Assembly (NCBI GenBank): GCA_944322545.1
Contig: CALUPF010000013.1
Span: 1-64,000 of the forward strand
DNA from: Candidatus Gastranaerophilales bacterium
GTDB lineage: Bacteria; Cyanobacteriota; Vampirovibrionia; Gastranaerophilales; Gastranaerophilaceae
Direction of reading: 5' to 3'
DNA length: 64,000 bases
Both the position numbers and the translations under genes were made by a program. Positions 1,843 to 8,704 of the stretch are shown in pieces; position 1 is the first letter of the stretch; every line of letters begins with the position of its first letter. The notes under the pieces are model-generated. The model was not told the DNA's origin and made no database searches. It saw only the letters and a program-made list of their open reading frames with translations.

Positions 1843-3744
1843 TTATTGATATACAATTTCGTTATAATTATATTTAGAAGCCCATTTTGTCGGGATATTT
1901 TTTGATACAACATAACCTTTTGTACAAAGTTTTAACATTGGTAAATCACTAATTGAGTCAGTGTAGCCAATAACTTCATATTGGTCTAGTGGTTCATCCT
2001 TAAAGTATGCTTTTATTATTTTGGGTTTATTATCAAACATGCAATCAAGTCCATCAAATGTTGCTTTGCATTTATTATTTTTAAACTTTATTTTTGTACA
2101 AAACAAGCCATCCAGTTTAAATTCGTCAACAAAGTATTTAAGATATATGTCATATCCACCGCTAACAACATAAATTCTATAATTTTCTTTTTTTAATCTT
2201 TTTATCTCTTTAAGAATCTGTGGAATAAAATAAGGACGGATTTCTTCTACATAAAAATTAAGTGCACACCTATCCATTTCTGCATAAGATAGATCTTTCA
2301 CTTGATTTAGTATGTAGGTTTTATCATAAAATCGTTTATTCATTTTTTTTCCAAGTTTTATTAAAATTTTATTTTTTAACTCTCTTAACCTAACAATAAA
2401 AGAATAATTGTGTTTTTTTACATAATCTATATATGCATTACCTGTTTGATAGTTTACTACTGTCCCACAAAAATCTAAAAATACCAATTTATTACTGTTC
2501 TGATTTGCTTTTGGTGCATTAAAGTCTTCAAAGAATTTGTCTATAAAATTTACAACTTTTTGCATTTGAGATGTAGTTCCAATCGTTATTCTTATACAAG
2601 GGTATAGTTTTTGACATTGTGACAAATCACGTACAAATATATTATGTTGTTTGAGATATTCAAATAAATTTGCTTTAATTGAATAAGAGGAACACTTGAT
2701 AAGCACAAAATTTGCACAACTAGGATGTATCTTTATATATTTGTTATATTTTTGCATGGCATTTATAAAATACTCCCTAGCATCTTTTACTTGTTTAACA
2801 AATTGTTTCATATAATCAATATCAGAAAGTGCCGCAAGAACGGCCTCTTGTGAAAATGTTGTAATGTTTTTAGGGTTACGTATTGAATTAATGCTTGCTA
2901 TATTTGTTTTTGACGCTAATAAATATCCAAATCTAAAATTTGCTAGAGCAAAAGCTTTAGACATTGTACGCGTTATTAATATATTATCGTAACTCAATAT
3001 CAAATCTTTGGCTGTGGTTTCTGAAAACTCATAATATGCTTCATCAACCAAAAACATAATTTCTGGATATTTAGTCAAAAGTTTTTCTATATATTCTGTT
3101 GAATGTTGGAATCCACACGGATTATTGGGAGAACACAAGTATATAAATGATGGTCTAATCTTCTTTATATCTTTTTCAAAAATTTTATTATCAAATTGAA
3201 AGTTTTCGTCCACTTCGCTATAAAATACACGACCACCATTTGCTTGTACCGTTAATCTAAAGTTGTCATATGACGGTGCTTGTATCAACACTTTGTCATT
3301 TTCGGCAATATACATTTTTGCAATATATTCATGTATAGCATCCGAACTTGCAAAATATTGTACATTTTCTATAGGCACTTCCGCATATTTTGCTAGTTTT
3401 TGCGTTAATTCCTCATTTATTGTTCGCGGATATAAGTTAAAAAAATTATCTTTATTCAACAATTTTTCCAATCTTAATAGTACAGCTGGCGAAGGAGGTA
3501 TTGTTGCTTCATTCCAATCAAGCTTAAGCACATTGTTTCTTTTGTCCGGATCGATATCCCATATTTTATGAGGAACGACTTTATATGGTTTGATGTTTTG
3601 CAAATATTTATTTACATGTAAAGAGTTATCTATCCCAATGCATATCTTGATTCGTATACCCAAAATAGTAAATATTTTATATATTTTTCCAGATTTGACA
3701 TTTTTTTGTTTATTATAAATTTTACTCAGTATTTTGTTAAACAT
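1843..3744 (-). CDS. PLP aminotransferase fused to HAD phosphatase
   Basis: A 633-residue two-domain enzyme, last gene of the glycan operon. Residues 1-37 carry the shared ITILG-type peptide. Residues about 60-405 are a HisC/CobD-like class I/II aminotransferase: CSPNNPCG near 204, DEAYYEF at 234 and a PLP lysine K263 in TRTMSKAFALANFRFGY. Residues 419-633 are a HAD-IB-like phosphatase: nucleophile D424, S528 in VVSGGYD, and GYTDSISD ending at 600. The usual second Asp of the DxDGT motif is Cys426. In Campylobacter jejuni capsule loci a separate HisC-like aminotransferase and a phosphatase make serinol from dihydroxyacetone phosphate; a fused version of such chemistry is my inference. Amine decoration of a surface glycan is the likely role. 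Confidence 0.82.
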   Translation of the reverse strand: MFNKILSKIYNKQKNVKSGKIYKIFTILGIRIKICIGIDNSLHVNKYLQNIKPYKVVPHKIWDIDPDKRNNVLKLDWNEATIPPSPAVLLRLEKLLNKDNFFNLYPRTINEELTQKLAKYAEVPIENVQYFASSDAIHEYIAKMYIAENDKVLIQAPSYDNFRLTVQANGGRVFYSEVDENFQFDNKIFEKDIKKIRPSFIYLCSPNNPCGFQHSTEYIEKLLTKYPEIMFLVDEAYYEFSETTAKDLILSYDNILITRTMSKAFALANFRFGYLLASKTNIASINSIRNPKNITTFSQEAVLAALSDIDYMKQFVKQVKDAREYFINAMQKYNKYIKIHPSCANFVLIKCSSYSIKANLFEYLKQHNIFVRDLSQCQKLYPCIRITIGTTSQMQKVVNFIDKFFEDFNAPKANQNSNKLVFLDFCGTVVNYQTGNAYIDYVKKHNYSFIVRLRELKNKILIKLGKKMNKRFYDKTYILNQVKDLSYAEMDRCALNFYVEEIRPYFIPQILKEIKRLKKENYRIYVVSGGYDIYLKYFVDEFKLDGLFCTKIKFKNNKCKATFDGLDCMFDNKPKIIKAYFKDEPLDQYEVIGYTDSISDLPMLKLCTKGYVVSKNIPTKWASKYNYNEIVYQ

Positions 3745-3756
3745 TTTTACTCCAGA

Positions 3757-4737
3757 TCAATTTTTGATTTTAGTCAAATCAATTAAACTACCAAGTTTAA
3801 TATCAATTTCATTACTAGACCATTTGCTAGCACCTGATGCACTGCTAAAAGTCATTTCTCCAAACTTGAGAGTGCCATCATTTAATTTGTATATATCAAC
3901 ACGCACCTGCACAAACCCCTGAGAAAGCTTACGTGCTATATTAATCATTTCGTCAAGATTATTTGGTTTTTCAACTGGAATTTTGGCTTGCTCTTTCCCT
4001 TTTTCAATTAGTTGTATATCTTTCATTTCCCAGTTCATATTATAAAAACTTCTTTCTTGAATATCGCCAAACTTGTTACTAACCCAACAAAGTTCAGGCT
4101 TTCCATTAAAACATAAAAACTTGTAATCAATTGCTGATTTATCTACAGACTCTATATATTCTTCTGCAATGATTAAAGGTTTTATATTCTTGTAATGTAG
4201 TTCTAGACCTGAAATAAAAGCAAAATTTGTGTGCATCCATTCATCGAATTTTTGTTTTGCAACTACTTTGTCTAACTTGTTTTTATCTTTGACTATAATA
4301 TTCCACCCACAGCCATGATTAGCTTTTAGAACAAATTTTTCAGGTAATTTATCAAAATCAATGTCATCAAATTTTTCCCAAACTCCAAGTAAGGGAATTA
4401 AATACTCTTCACCAATTTTTTCTTTAACCCACTCTCTTACCAAGTATTTATCAGCAAGACGAGTTTTTAATGGAGTTGAATCGTACAATTTTAGCCATTG
4501 CATCTTTTCATTAAAAGTTTTAGGATTTTCAAGATTTAATTCTTCGCCTGTACAGTTATAAAACCAATCTTTTAAATATTCAGGATATTTATCCTCAGAC
4601 ATATATTTACATAATTTATACTCAAAGTTTTGACACAAATTTGATGAATTTTTTAACTTACATTTTATTTTCACACCTAAAATTGTTATTATTTTATAAT
4701 AATTATTTTTGGTCACAGAAAATATTTTTTTTAACAT
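3757..4737 (-). CDS. TupA-like ATP-grasp enzyme of glycan synthesis
   Basis: A 326-residue protein matching the TupA-like ATP-grasp family, named after the teichuronopeptide gene and common in capsule and LPS loci. Family landmarks are NPKTFNEKMQWLKLYD near 72, ADKYLVREWV, FVLKANHGCGWNIIV near 138, AEEYIES near 190, and QVRVDIY...GEMTFSSASG near 275-300. Residues 1-27 carry the shared LFS-type/ITILGVKIK peptide in front of the family domain. It probably forms an amide or similar bond on a surface polymer, using ATP; substrate unknown. It sits 12 bases before the aminotransferase fusion and 59 bases after the radical SAM gene, so co-transcription is likely. Confidence 0.8.
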   Translation of the reverse strand: MLKKIFSVTKNNYYKIITILGVKIKCKLKNSSNLCQNFEYKLCKYMSEDKYPEYLKDWFYNCTGEELNLENPKTFNEKMQWLKLYDSTPLKTRLADKYLVREWVKEKIGEEYLIPLLGVWEKFDDIDFDKLPEKFVLKANHGCGWNIIVKDKNKLDKVVAKQKFDEWMHTNFAFISGLELHYKNIKPLIIAEEYIESVDKSAIDYKFLCFNGKPELCWVSNKFGDIQERSFYNMNWEMKDIQLIEKGKEQAKIPVEKPNNLDEMINIARKLSQGFVQVRVDIYKLNDGTLKFGEMTFSSASGASKWSSNEIDIKLGSLIDLTKIKN

Positions 4738-4796
4738 TGCTAAAACAAACCTTTCTTTTTATATCGTCTTATTTTTTTGTTAAAGTAGTAATTACT

Positions 4797-5729
4797 TTAC
4801 GACCATTCTTCAATTTGCTTTTTAGAAATACCCCATTGGTGATTATAAGATCTACCTTTTACATTGCAATATCTGCAAAATGGAATTGGTTTTGCAAGAA
4901 AATCCAATATTTCTTGTATGGAAGAAGCTTGATGAATATCAATATAATCATTTTCATCTAATTTCATATCAACATTGAAAAATTTCTTAAAATGATGAGC
5001 ATTGGCTGCTGGGGTACAAGTATAGAGCTTGCCATCATGAATTCCTATACAATCATTTGCATGAAAACAATTGATAAAATTTTCTCGTGGCTCTTGTGAG
5101 CCATTAATATCAAAAGGGATATGATATGATGTTTTTAAAACCTTTTCATCATTATAAAAAAGAAAATCAACATTATATTTTTCTGCTTGTTGTTTTATAT
5201 ATTCATAATCTACATTTATAGGATATTTAGTACATACAATTGTTATTTTATTATTTTCTATAGCTTGCCAAAAATTTTCGTCTCTATTCATTAACAAAAT
5301 ACCATTGGAATGCAACCTTAATATAGTATTTGGGAAATTAATTCTTGCAATACTGAACATTTCAATAATATCGGGATTAAGTAATGCCTCTCCTCCAGTT
5401 AGTATAATTAAAGAAACATTTCCTTTTGTTAATTCAGCTAGTCTTTTTATATCTTTTTCAAATGATTCTAAACTAACAAAACGTTCCTCTGCGATTGGTG
5501 AACAAACATCACAATTTTTACAATTTAAATTGCAGTGATCAACTAGATGAAATAAAACGTGATCTAGCGATGGTCTAGGTATAATACGCGTTATTTTTTT
5601 ATAATATTCATCTAACTCCAAATTTTTGACAAGATTATCATTTCTAATTTTTATTTTAACCCCTAAAATTGTTATTATTTTATGATATTCGCGTTTTTCT
5701 ATTGAAAACAAACGTTTTAAAATACTCAT
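4797..5729 (-). CDS. radical SAM protein in glycan operon
   Basis: A 310-residue radical SAM enzyme. The iron-sulfur motif CNLNCKNC gives C66, C70 and C73, followed by a further Cys at 76, then the ILTGGEALLNPD segment near 112-124 that contacts SAM. The C-terminal part has cysteines in CFHANDCIG, LYTCTP and FCRYCNV, suggesting an auxiliary cluster as in SPASM-like proteins. Residues 1-29 are the shared LFS/ITILGVKIK peptide. Lying between a GT2 gene and the TupA-like gene, it probably modifies a sugar or an amino-acid substituent of a surface glycan, but the reaction cannot be read from the sequence. Confidence 0.82.
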   Translation of the reverse strand: MSILKRLFSIEKREYHKIITILGVKIKIRNDNLVKNLELDEYYKKITRIIPRPSLDHVLFHLVDHCNLNCKNCDVCSPIAEERFVSLESFEKDIKRLAELTKGNVSLIILTGGEALLNPDIIEMFSIARINFPNTILRLHSNGILLMNRDENFWQAIENNKITIVCTKYPINVDYEYIKQQAEKYNVDFLFYNDEKVLKTSYHIPFDINGSQEPRENFINCFHANDCIGIHDGKLYTCTPAANAHHFKKFFNVDMKLDENDYIDIHQASSIQEILDFLAKPIPFCRYCNVKGRSYNHQWGISKKQIEEWS

Positions 5730-5768
5730 TAATTAACTCCTTTCACACCTGTTAACTTTTAAAGATTG

Positions 5769-6785
5769 TCATATTTTAAATTTAAGTTTTATTCCCAAAA
5801 TAGTTATAATTAGTTTTTTCTTTCTATACATTTTTTTTACTGAAAAAAGTTTTTCTATAAAAGAAACATAAATATACTGATTGTGATAAAATAATTCATC
5901 TCTAAACTTTTTATAAAGTTGAATTGGAAATTTTTTTTTAATTTCCTTTTGAAGATGTATTTTTTGAGCTTTGTCACAATGAACTAATTCATACAAAAAA
6001 TTATCTATCGCTTTTTTATAAACAGTTTCTTTTACTTCTTCCCAAATATTTTTTGACTTTATGTATTTTATAACTTCTTCATATGCAAGTATCACACAAG
6101 TTGAAGATTTTCCACGATTAGCCGATAAACAAGTACTACTATTTTGACGATAAGTTATCAAATCTTCATCTACATATGTAATTTTGTCCGCTAAAAGAAG
6201 TGAAATATTGTTGAAATAAACATCATTACACGTCTTTATTTCTTGAAATCTTAAACAATTTTTCCTAATGAACTCAGTTTTATACAACTTAATGAAAAGA
6301 TTTGGCACACAAATCTGTAATATATCATTTGGAATATCTTTTCTAGAAAATGTTTCTAAGTTAGGTATAACTTCCTTGTTAGTGGAATAATCAATATTTT
6401 CTATGCAATTACTATTTTCATTAAATATGTTGTTCTTACAAAAACATATATCAGAATCTGTTTTTGAGATTTGAGAATACATCTTTTCTAAATTATGTAG
6501 ATCTATAAAATCATCACTATCTAAAAAATACAAATAATCACCGCTTGCAGAATCTAAACCTCTATTTCTTGCAACACCTGCTCCTTGATTTTTTTGTTTT
6601 AACACTTTTATTCTTGAATCTATTTGTTCATATTCCTGACAAATTGACAAACTAGAATCTGTTGACCCATCATCAACTAAAATGATTTCAAGATCCTTTA
6701 ATGTCTGATTAACCACACTATCTAGACATTCTCTTAAATATTTTTCTACATTATAGACAGGGATTATCACTGAAACTTTAGGCAT
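5769..6785 (-). CDS. family 2 glycosyltransferase
   Basis: A 338-residue GT2 (GT-A fold) transferase. The N-terminus has VSVIIPVYNVEKYL, then ILVDDGSTD at about 36-44 and FLDSDDF at about 92, the nucleotide-sugar and metal site. Residues 100-300 are the acceptor half. The last 30 residues end in LFSVKK followed by IITILGIKLKFKI, the same peptide other enzymes of this operon carry at their N-terminus. Its start overlaps the end of the upstream GT2 gene by 8 bases, a sign of translational coupling. It transfers a sugar to a surface glycan; donor and acceptor are unknown. Confidence 0.88.
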   Translation of the reverse strand: MPKVSVIIPVYNVEKYLRECLDSVVNQTLKDLEIILVDDGSTDSSLSICQEYEQIDSRIKVLKQKNQGAGVARNRGLDSASGDYLYFLDSDDFIDLHNLEKMYSQISKTDSDICFCKNNIFNENSNCIENIDYSTNKEVIPNLETFSRKDIPNDILQICVPNLFIKLYKTEFIRKNCLRFQEIKTCNDVYFNNISLLLADKITYVDEDLITYRQNSSTCLSANRGKSSTCVILAYEEVIKYIKSKNIWEEVKETVYKKAIDNFLYELVHCDKAQKIHLQKEIKKKFPIQLYKKFRDELFYHNQYIYVSFIEKLFSVKKMYRKKKLIITILGIKLKFKI

Positions 6786-7869
6786 TTTTAACCTTTCTTT
6801 TTATTTTGAACGAAACCCCTAAAATCGTAATTAATTTTTCCTTTTTACCAAATGTATTTTTTATTGAAAAAAGTTTTTGCCAAAAAGACAAGTACAAAGG
6901 ACCCGAACCTTTTTTATGCAACAAGTCATACACTTTTTTAAAATTATTTTTCTGAGCGTAGTATATCAACAAATGAGACTTTTTATTTGCTATAGGCACT
7001 TTATTTCTTTGCAAAATTTCAATAAATTCCATAGCATATTTTTCTTTATAATCAATCGAAACAAATTGATACCAAAAAAATGCATCATCTTGCACAGAAT
7101 CATATACATAATTCAATTTACTGTTACCAATATTTTTAATCTTAGACAAGAAAAATAACAAGTTATCAAAACAATATAATGTATCAAGACAGTCTTTAGC
7201 GCCTTTGTCAAAAGCCTTAGACATTACACTGCCAGTTCTATAAACATAATTGTACAATTTTTCATTCAAACCATAAGCATTTTTTGCTACAAGCACATAT
7301 TGACGTATAAATGTACAATCCTCTTGCTTATGACCATCAGGAAATCGTATATTATATTTATCTACTAAAGACTTTCTAAATATTTTCTTCCAAAGTAAAA
7401 CCTTTACTTTATCTTTTATTTTAATGTTACTGTTAAAATCAACCTTTCCAATAAAACCCAATCTAGGGTAAACAGTATCATCTTTTCTATCGTTTGTTTC
7501 ATCTATAACAATATTCACATCACAAACAACTAAATCAACATTTTCTTTCTCTATTGCTGAAAACATTTTTTCTACCATCTGAGACTCATACCAATCATCT
7601 GAATCACAAAACATTAGATACTCGCCATTAGCATTATCTAAACCAACATTCCTTGCTGTAGCAGAACCTTTATTTTCTTGAGAAAACAGTTTTATTCTAG
7701 AATCTTTTTGGGCGTATTCTTCTATAATTTTTAAAGAATTATCTGTTGATCCATCATTAATACAAATAATTTCGATATCATTGAAAGTCTGATTAACAAG
7801 ACTATCTAGACATCTTTTCAAATATTTTTCCACATTATAAACAGGTATTATCACTGAAACTTTAGGCAT
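6778..7869 (-). CDS. family 2 glycosyltransferase
   Basis: A 363-residue GT2 transferase paralogous to its downstream neighbour; the first 17 residues are nearly identical. ICINDGSTD (about 35-43) and FCDSDDW (about 91-97) form the catalytic site. The C-terminus, about residues 325-363, carries LFSIKN...LITILGVSFKIK, the shared operon peptide with a basic tail. The start overlaps the XRE regulator gene by 8 bases and its stop overlaps the next GT2, so regulator and enzymes form one transcript. Specificity cannot be inferred. Confidence 0.88.
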   Translation of the reverse strand: MPKVSVIIPVYNVEKYLKRCLDSLVNQTFNDIEIICINDGSTDNSLKIIEEYAQKDSRIKLFSQENKGSATARNVGLDNANGEYLMFCDSDDWYESQMVEKMFSAIEKENVDLVVCDVNIVIDETNDRKDDTVYPRLGFIGKVDFNSNIKIKDKVKVLLWKKIFRKSLVDKYNIRFPDGHKQEDCTFIRQYVLVAKNAYGLNEKLYNYVYRTGSVMSKAFDKGAKDCLDTLYCFDNLLFFLSKIKNIGNSKLNYVYDSVQDDAFFWYQFVSIDYKEKYAMEFIEILQRNKVPIANKKSHLLIYYAQKNNFKKVYDLLHKKGSGPLYLSFWQKLFSIKNTFGKKEKLITILGVSFKIKRKVKNA

Positions 7870-8221
7870 TTTTCACTCCCGCTAAAACACTTTTATTCTT
7901 TTTAATTGACAAAATAATATCCAAACACAATTTCAACTCAGACTCGTTGTAACCTTTTAAAACATTCAAAATGTCTGCTTCTAGTCTTCTTGGCGTATAT
8001 TTTTGAGTTGTTTTCACATCCTCAATGCTAAAATCAAGAACATTAGAAATTTTCAAATAAGTGCTTAATTTAGGGATATATGTTCCATCCTCTAGCTTAC
8101 CAACATGGCGTGTGCTGATTCCGACCAATCCCCCTAGCTCAGCTTGTGTAAAGCCTTTTGACTTTCTTTTCTCTTTTATTAAAACACCTAATGACTTGCA
8201 TAAGCTGATATCAGAAGACAT
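7862..8221 (-). CDS. XRE-family regulator, first gene of glycan operon
   Basis: A 119-residue protein with one helix-turn-helix domain at about residues 10-66: KGFTQAELGGLVGISTRHVGKLEDG is a typical XRE HTH. The tail (about 75-119) is helical and probably dimerises. The gene is the first of the glycan operon and overlaps the first GT2 gene by 8 bases. It is divergent from another XRE gene at 8390 across a 168-base intergenic region with inverted and direct repeats. It probably regulates its own operon; sign of control unknown. Confidence 0.85.
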   Translation of the reverse strand: MSSDISLCKSLGVLIKEKRKSKGFTQAELGGLVGISTRHVGKLEDGTYIPKLSTYLKISNVLDFSIEDVKTTQKYTPRRLEADILNVLKGYNESELKLCLDIILSIKKNKSVLAGVKNA

Positions 8222-8389: not shown

Positions 8390-8704
8390 ATGAACAATAA
8401 AAAACTTCTTGGAAAAAGAATTAAAGAATTGAGAAAAATCAAAGGTTTAACACAAGAGGAACTGGCCGAAAAAATTGACATAGAAACAAACTCATTAAGT
8501 GGAATAGAAAGCGGGCGCCATTTTCCATCTCTTCCAACCCTTGAGAAAATAGCAAGTCATCTAAATGTAGAACTAAAATCACTTTTTGAATTTAAACACC
8601 TAATTGATATAAACAAAATGAAAGAACGCATAATAAAAAACATAGACAAAATACCAGAAGAACAGATAAAATTCATATACAAATTTTTTGAAGATTTTGA
8701 ATAG
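8390..8704 (+). CDS. XRE-family transcriptional regulator
   Basis: A 104-residue protein with an N-terminal XRE helix-turn-helix at about residues 5-62 (KGLTQEELAEKIDIETNSLSGIESG) and a short helical tail ending IPEEQIKFIYKFFEDFE. AAGGATATGTT precedes the ATG. It is transcribed away from the XRE gene that heads the glycan operon; the two tails have similar length and pattern, suggesting related but distinct regulators. Together they look like a two-regulator switch, which is an inference from layout. Confidence 0.85.
   Translation: MNNKKLLGKRIKELRKIKGLTQEELAEKIDIETNSLSGIESGRHFPSLPTLEKIASHLNVELKSLFEFKHLIDINKMKERIIKNIDKIPEEQIKFIYKFFEDFE

Follow-up and report, generated by a model that had tools for sequence, protein, structure and literature searches.

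A portable basic peptide on unrelated surface-glycan enzymes of Gastranaerophilales, a candidate docking module

Tagged genes at the locus

The window analysed here is a 64,000-nucleotide stretch of contig CALUPF010000013.1 from a Candidatus Gastranaerophilales bacterium (assembly GCA_944322545.1). Five consecutive genes in it encode glycan enzymes that each carry a conserved peptide of ~28 residues, hereafter the tag (Table 1). An earlier note on this DNA had placed the peptide at the N-terminus of three products and at the C-terminus of two, and all five copies were found at these ends. The same note described the hosts as five unrelated enzymes; the two GT2 glycosyltransferases, however, are homologous (~36% identical), leaving four unrelated kinds of host. 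In the aminotransferase-HAD protein, the tag precedes the aminotransferase and HAD domains alike according to Pfam coordinates.

Ahead of the tagged genes lies an XRE-type regulator gene; by open reading frame coordinates, its 3' end runs into the start of the first GT2 gene. Since only small gaps or overlaps separate these genes, the five tagged genes probably form one operon, with the regulator likely at its head. Ribosome-site-like sequences are present upstream of the N-tagged genes (AAGGAG/GGAG-like closely preceding the starts of the radical SAM and aminotransferase genes, with a weaker AAAGG before the TupA-like start); on this basis, the starts of the N-tagged genes look genuine.

Four further copies occur in the same genome outside the window: C-terminally on a DUF4422 protein and a GT32-type protein, N-terminally on an FkbM methyltransferase, and between both domains of a GT8-TupA fusion.

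Two side observations concern the window genes. A second gene of the XRE helix-turn-helix type lies just upstream of the regulator on the opposite strand (8390-8704, +), and short helix-turn-helix genes resembling it were found in 7 of 63 tagged loci. The aminotransferase has HisC as its best NCBIfam match and is also CobD-like; its fusion to an HAD-IB domain within a glycan operon would perhaps fit the making of an amino-alcohol decoration.

Table 1. Tagged genes, tag copies and the adjoining regulator in the window (aa, amino acids)
Feature	Position	Strand	Basis
HisC/CobD-like aminotransferase-HAD-IB phosphatase fusion, N-terminal tag	1843..3744	-	Pfam PF00155 E 3e-52 aa 71-401; PF12710 E 2e-20 aa 421-605
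Tag copy 1 (aminotransferase-HAD, aa 4-35; most diverged) KILSKIYNKQKNVKSGKIYKIFTILGIRIKIC	3640..3735	-	alignment; broad profile E 3e-5
TupA-like ATP-grasp protein, N-terminal tag	3757..4737	-	PF14305 E 5e-48 aa 77-319
Tag copy 2 (TupA-like, aa 1-27) MLKKIFSVTKNNYYKIITILGVKIKCK	4657..4737	-	leave-one-out E 1e-10
Radical SAM protein, N-terminal tag	4797..5729	-	PF04055 E 4e-10 aa 64-156
Tag copy 3 (radical SAM, aa 2-29) SILKRLFSIEKREYHKIITILGVKIKIR	5643..5726	-	leave-one-out E 5e-11
Second GT2 glycosyltransferase, C-terminal tag	5769..6785	-	PF00535 E 2e-39 aa 5-126
Tag copy 4 (second GT2, aa 308-337) SFIEKLFSVKKMYRKKKLIITILGIKLKFK	5775..5864	-	leave-one-out E 2e-8
First GT2 glycosyltransferase, C-terminal tag	6778..7869	-	PF00535 E 1e-42 aa 5-165; AlphaFold mean pLDDT 90.7
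Tag copy 5 (first GT2, aa 328-357) SFWQKLFSIKNTFGKKEKLITILGVSFKIK	6799..6888	-	leave-one-out E 1e-7
XRE/Cro-type helix-turn-helix regulator, untagged	7862..8221	-	PF01381 E 5e-11

Tag sequence and conservation

Judged by sequence, the five window peptides are copies of one homologous tag with the consensus (F/I)L(Q/E)(K/N)IFS(V/I)KN-x(2-9)-(H/Y)K(V/I)(I/L)T(I/L)LG(I/V)K(I/F)K(I/F)(K/R). When a profile built from four window peptides was searched against the fifth (leave-one-out), four of the five were recovered with E-values from 5e-11 to 1e-7; the aminotransferase-HAD copy was the weakest (E 0.24, compared to 3e-5 with the broad profile). Tag profiles matched 141-149 proteins among the 970 open reading frames of 63 loci, which were picked for holding matches, so that these counts show specificity and not frequency. 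Reversed or shuffled proteins of the same 63 loci gave no profile match. Given this result and the leave-one-out recovery, the resemblance is not due to chance.

Conservation within the tag was strict at particular residues (F 93%, S 97%, N 88%, K 94%, G 94%). In alignments of unrelated hosts, nearly invariant columns were confined to the tag, start methionine excepted, and 129 aligned untagged neighbours contained no near-invariant column. Mean tag identity was 48%, and C-terminal and N-terminal tags were equally alike. Because codons differ at ~43% of the shared tag residues, the tag is conserved mainly at the protein level.

Host enzymes and placement of the tag

The 63 loci contained 162 copies in 149 proteins: 63 C-terminal, 40 N-terminal and 59 internal. 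GT2 enzymes made up 31 of 61 C-tagged hosts, the others including GT8 enzymes, pyruvyltransferases, Stealth and RgpF proteins. None of 40 N-tagged hosts was a GT2; here methyltransferases, radical SAM proteins, LicD, TupA, WbsX and CDP-glycerol-type phosphotransferases were found, and in methyltransferases, LicD and TupA the tag was mostly N-terminal. The side of the tag is thus set by the enzyme family. The earlier idea that the tag moves between ends was correct in that both ends are used, as are positions between domains and in tandem, but the movement is not free, since placement is fixed by family.

Hosts were glycan-modifying transferases, and the tag was rare on nucleotide-sugar enzymes. 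Untagged neighbours, in turn, were rich in epimerases, RmlD-like and UDP-sugar dehydrogenases and ABC transporters. Transmembrane-like segments were predicted in 2 of 149 tagged proteins versus 27 of 188 untagged neighbours. Taken together, host families, neighbour families and the scarcity of such segments indicate a tendency, with exceptions, for the tag to mark soluble enzymes whose substrate, by family, is the glycan and not a free nucleotide sugar.

The tag is a portable module outside the catalytic domains and independent of host fold, occurring in several Pfam families and at varying positions along the protein. This agrees with the modular tag on unrelated enzymes proposed in the earlier note. 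The opposite view, that the tag is integral to each catalytic domain or that the enzymes share a common ancestry, could draw on the GT2 model, which places the tag after the catalytic body with fair confidence. It is refuted by the host families, which are many and of different folds, with all catalytic matches in the window outside the tag, and by the untagged homologues: for 50 of 102 tagged bodies, an untagged homologue covers at least 80% of the body. In some of these homologues, another basic tail, of the LFG/LLG kind, takes the place of the tag. The outcomes that the earlier note had named as refuting were likewise absent, as the tag was neither part of one catalytic fold nor spread over unrelated cytosolic proteins.

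Tags at fusion seams

In fused proteins, an enzyme of the C-tag type came first, then the tag, then an enzyme of the N-tag type. Where a tag was internal, the preceding portion found its best match among C-tagged stand-alone enzymes (38 versus 2) and the following portion among N-tagged ones (23 versus 4). In eight fused proteins the seam holds a tandem pair of tags (GT2-tag-tag-methyltransferase and GT4-tag-tag-TupA are examples), as expected if a C-tagged gene had been joined to an N-tagged one lying downstream. Within the window, ~45 bases separate the tag of the second GT2 gene from that of the radical SAM gene. Most fused enzymes retain one tag, which suggests selection on its placement in the chain and not on the pairing of two enzymes. 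Separately, three large proteins (L082:9541-12372, L092:2382-5129 and L096:12411-15416) contain two well separated tags and apparently represent three enzymes arranged as domain-tag-domain-tag-domain.

The exact position of the tag at the seams of fused enzymes and at gene ends would also be expected of an inert linker or recombination seam, in which the DNA is retained for shuffling and fusing glycan genes and the peptide itself does nothing. Between loci, shared residues in fact use identical codons slightly more often than expected (0.568 versus 0.511), and the within-locus value is 0.582 versus 0.516 expected. However, this explanation is very improbable given the protein-level conservation described above: copies within a locus are not more alike in protein and barely more alike in codons, and a strict pattern of residues and the predicted fold are retained both on stand-alone enzymes and across two orders.

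Predicted fold and charge

The first window GT2 was modelled with AlphaFold from an alignment of 39 tagged GT2 rows. Its glycosyltransferase body has CgT, TarS, TarP and RmlT as neighbours in the PDB. Assigned by DSSP, the tag in this model comprises a 5-residue helix (329-333) and strands at 334-338, 344-349 and 352-357. A second model, of a homologous GT2 within a fusion, has the same three strands in the first tag and an 11-residue helix reaching into the tag, while the second tag of the tandem-fusion model was without confident prediction. The tag is accordingly predicted to fold as a short helix followed by a three-stranded beta-meander. Strand alternation would put the conserved hydrophobic residues and the lysines on opposite sides.

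Every tag is positively charged, with a mean net charge of +5.2 per tag compared to +0.25 per 28 residues in the protein bodies. The last strand has a beta hydrophobic moment of 0.91. The otherwise soluble enzymes thus carry an element of basic and hydrophobic, amphipathic character.

Distribution across genomes

Genomes were sampled from the phylum and order of the window genome and from the phylum, class and order around one Alphaproteobacteria-titled genome. The profile search, a check put forward in the earlier note, gave matches in surface-glycan loci of many genomes and at both termini. In the order of the window genome, 107 of 146 genomes carried the tag; across its phylum (244 genomes), only two matches fell outside the order, both borderline (E ~9e-4). 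A pattern scan of named genomes gave 21 loci, about half titled Candidatus Gastranaerophilales and one Alphaproteobacteria. In this second, alphaproteobacterial order, the tag was present in 36 of 125 genomes, with N-terminal, C-terminal and internal copies all represented; the surrounding phylum and class samples gave 1 of 299 and 3 of 289 genomes, respectively. The phage collection contained no tag match, and a DNA-pattern match on contig C36 was rejected as an antisense chance match inside another gene.

One alphaproteobacterial segment (L035:5460-7210) and one from the window's order (L098:11375-13139) share 73% DNA identity over 1.8 kb. This similarity suggests that glycan loci may have been transferred between genomes of the two groups.

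The best plasmid matches were weak and fell on TupA-like proteins of a Brachyspira hyodysenteriae glycan plasmid (tblastn E 3-7; profile 15 bits), covering strands 2-3 only; they are taken as suggestive. Roles in rhamnose biosynthesis and glycosylation have been proposed for genes of this plasmid (PMC4267127). The region concerned (L081:503-4189) holds a row of three TupA-like genes, the last of them incomplete; their C-terminal tails are nearly identical, and the first two end in PDQTR repeats.

A proposed docking function

Capsule and O-antigen biology has long asked how soluble glycan-building enzymes reach their lipid-linked acceptor and one another. Our main interpretation, to which we assign a probability of about 0.5, is that the tag is a universal, position-independent docking minidomain which gathers soluble glycan enzymes of many folds into one inner-membrane hub in at least two distant orders of gut bacteria, and which also serves as a fusion seam. 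The underlying proposal, that the tag brings soluble enzymes to the membrane site of surface-glycan assembly, has roughly even odds as well. Docking to a membrane or scaffold was already envisaged in the earlier note.

According to this proposal, the tag would be a self-contained minidomain of ~28 residues, borne by otherwise soluble enzymes whose reactions add groups to surface glycans as these grow, presumably linked to lipid. Its lysine-rich face, perhaps together with exposed hydrophobic residues, would bind one common target, most plausibly either the inner membrane, at its anionic cytoplasmic face, or the pyrophosphate-lipid carrier of the glycan. We favour a membrane surface or lipid carrier because the hosts are soluble, belong to families acting on lipid-linked glycans, and carry a module that is basic and amphipathic. 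In the precedent of PglH, a basic amphipathic element binds both the membrane and the pyrophosphate of the lipid-linked oligosaccharide (PMC5792488). Glycosyltransferases, methyltransferases, LicD and other phosphotransferases, pyruvyltransferases and ATP-grasp enzymes might thereby be concentrated at the acceptor, family-fixed placement would orient the catalytic face, and the tag could act as the joint where C-tagged and N-tagged enzymes fuse.

The earlier note had further supposed that the enzymes of one polymer work as a complex of their own. This part is weakened. Sharing a locus did not make tags more alike (identity 0.482 within loci versus 0.484 between them), and the same-locus similarity score was 2.557 against a permutation mean of 2.583, so that a locus-specific tag code with polymer-specific docking pairs was rejected. 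No linked scaffold gene was found: the most widespread untagged families were epimerases, GT2s and an ABC transporter (in 11), and none exceeded 20 of the 63 loci. The retention of one tag by most fusions points the same way. The equal similarity of tags and the lack of a widely linked family favour one universal docking target over polymer-specific complexes.

These observations also bear on whether the target is the tag itself. Beta-meanders of different enzymes could pair and so hold several enzymes together in a soluble cluster that needs neither membrane nor any other receptor. Such homotypic interaction needs tags that are alike whatever the host, side or locus, as they are, and needs no scaffold gene; tandem C-tag/N-tag pairs at fusion seams would fit, and microcompartment encapsulation peptides self-assemble likewise (PMC12339742). 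Nevertheless, we consider self-association unlikely: the positive charge of every tag disfavours pairing of like faces, most fusions keep one tag though fused enzymes need no pairing, and locus-blind pairing would mix enzymes of different polymers in one cell.

A conserved membrane protein encoded elsewhere, such as a flippase, polymerase, ABC exporter or initiating transferase, might instead serve as the receptor. The strict conservation of F, S, N, K and G over three placements fits a specific pocket, and a universal tag on soluble hosts is what such a receptor would call for. This explanation is also doubtful, as the linkage analysis yielded no candidate and two distant orders would need to have the receptor in common.

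Several points weigh against membrane or lipid-carrier docking itself. Residue conservation is stricter than binding to lipid alone would call for, and points to a site specific for a protein or ligand; the tag strands and basic face were modelled at moderate confidence (predicted local distance difference test, pLDDT, ~77-85); some homologous enzymes in similar loci have no tag or a different tail; and the aminotransferase-HAD and radical SAM hosts are not obvious acceptor-acting transferases.

A portable tag on glycosyltransferases, methyltransferases, LicD, TupA and pyruvyltransferases makes the enzyme-acceptor question testable through one 28-residue module. It also provides a sequence handle for glycan-modifying enzymes among the unannotated genes of uncultured gut bacteria and is a candidate tool for co-localising engineered glycan enzymes.

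Comparison with known systems

Among the Pfam and NCBIfam families shown for the five window proteins, none covers the tag region. A PDB profile search gave no tag homologue, only GCN4-type fusion segments and chance matches, and neither tag strings nor a description of the tag were found in the open-licence literature.

One parallel is a tail termed type B (~KKxISIRWNxxEKxIxLFGKxI), which, like other LFG/LLG tails on GT2 enzymes of these loci, occupies the same terminal slot, is basic and has a similar strand-G-strand pattern. It differs in its core sequence (ISIRWNxxEKxIxLFGKxI) and sits mostly on one type of GT2 of ~360 residues, C-terminally, as well as between the domains of a DUF4422-GT8 protein. 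Type B sites were seen at L017:2134-2262 and L017:3924-4061 and in L082, L083, L084, L089, L095, L096, L113 and L127, L083 having an intermediate tail form, FSVKINKSRVSVKIFGKQI. Type B is at most a putative relative of the main tag.

The WbdD/WbdA O-polysaccharide complexes resemble the proposed arrangement in being membrane-associated assemblies formed via non-catalytic C-terminal regions (PMC11231755). There, however, a dedicated coiled-coil scaffold recruits one polymerase, whereas each tagged enzyme has its own copy and no linked scaffold was seen.

Basic amphipathic membrane-binding elements also occur in the single glycosyltransferases LgtC, WaaG and PimA. Similarly, the ruler helix of PglH is, like the tag, a positive amphipathic element; it anchors an otherwise soluble glycosyltransferase to the membrane and contacts the lipid-linked substrate (PMC5792488). 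Elements of the PglH type are helices specific to one enzyme, in contrast to the tag, which is one portable module on transferases of many folds.

Microcompartment encapsulation peptides share with the tag the form of a short conserved peptide at the termini of unrelated enzymes of one process, and gather the enzymes of one pathway (PMC12339742; PMC11157265). They are amphipathic helices of ~18 residues joined by a disordered linker and require shell proteins, whereas the tag is predicted by AlphaFold and DSSP to form a helix and three strands and not an amphipathic alpha-helix of ~18 residues. Microcompartment shell proteins (PF00936) were detected in none of 21 genomes, the window's own and 20 relatives, while two control genomes were positive. 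The tag was therefore rejected as a microcompartment encapsulation peptide on both helix and shell evidence. By analogy, it would nonetheless work like known targeting tags, with a logic closest to that of these peptides.

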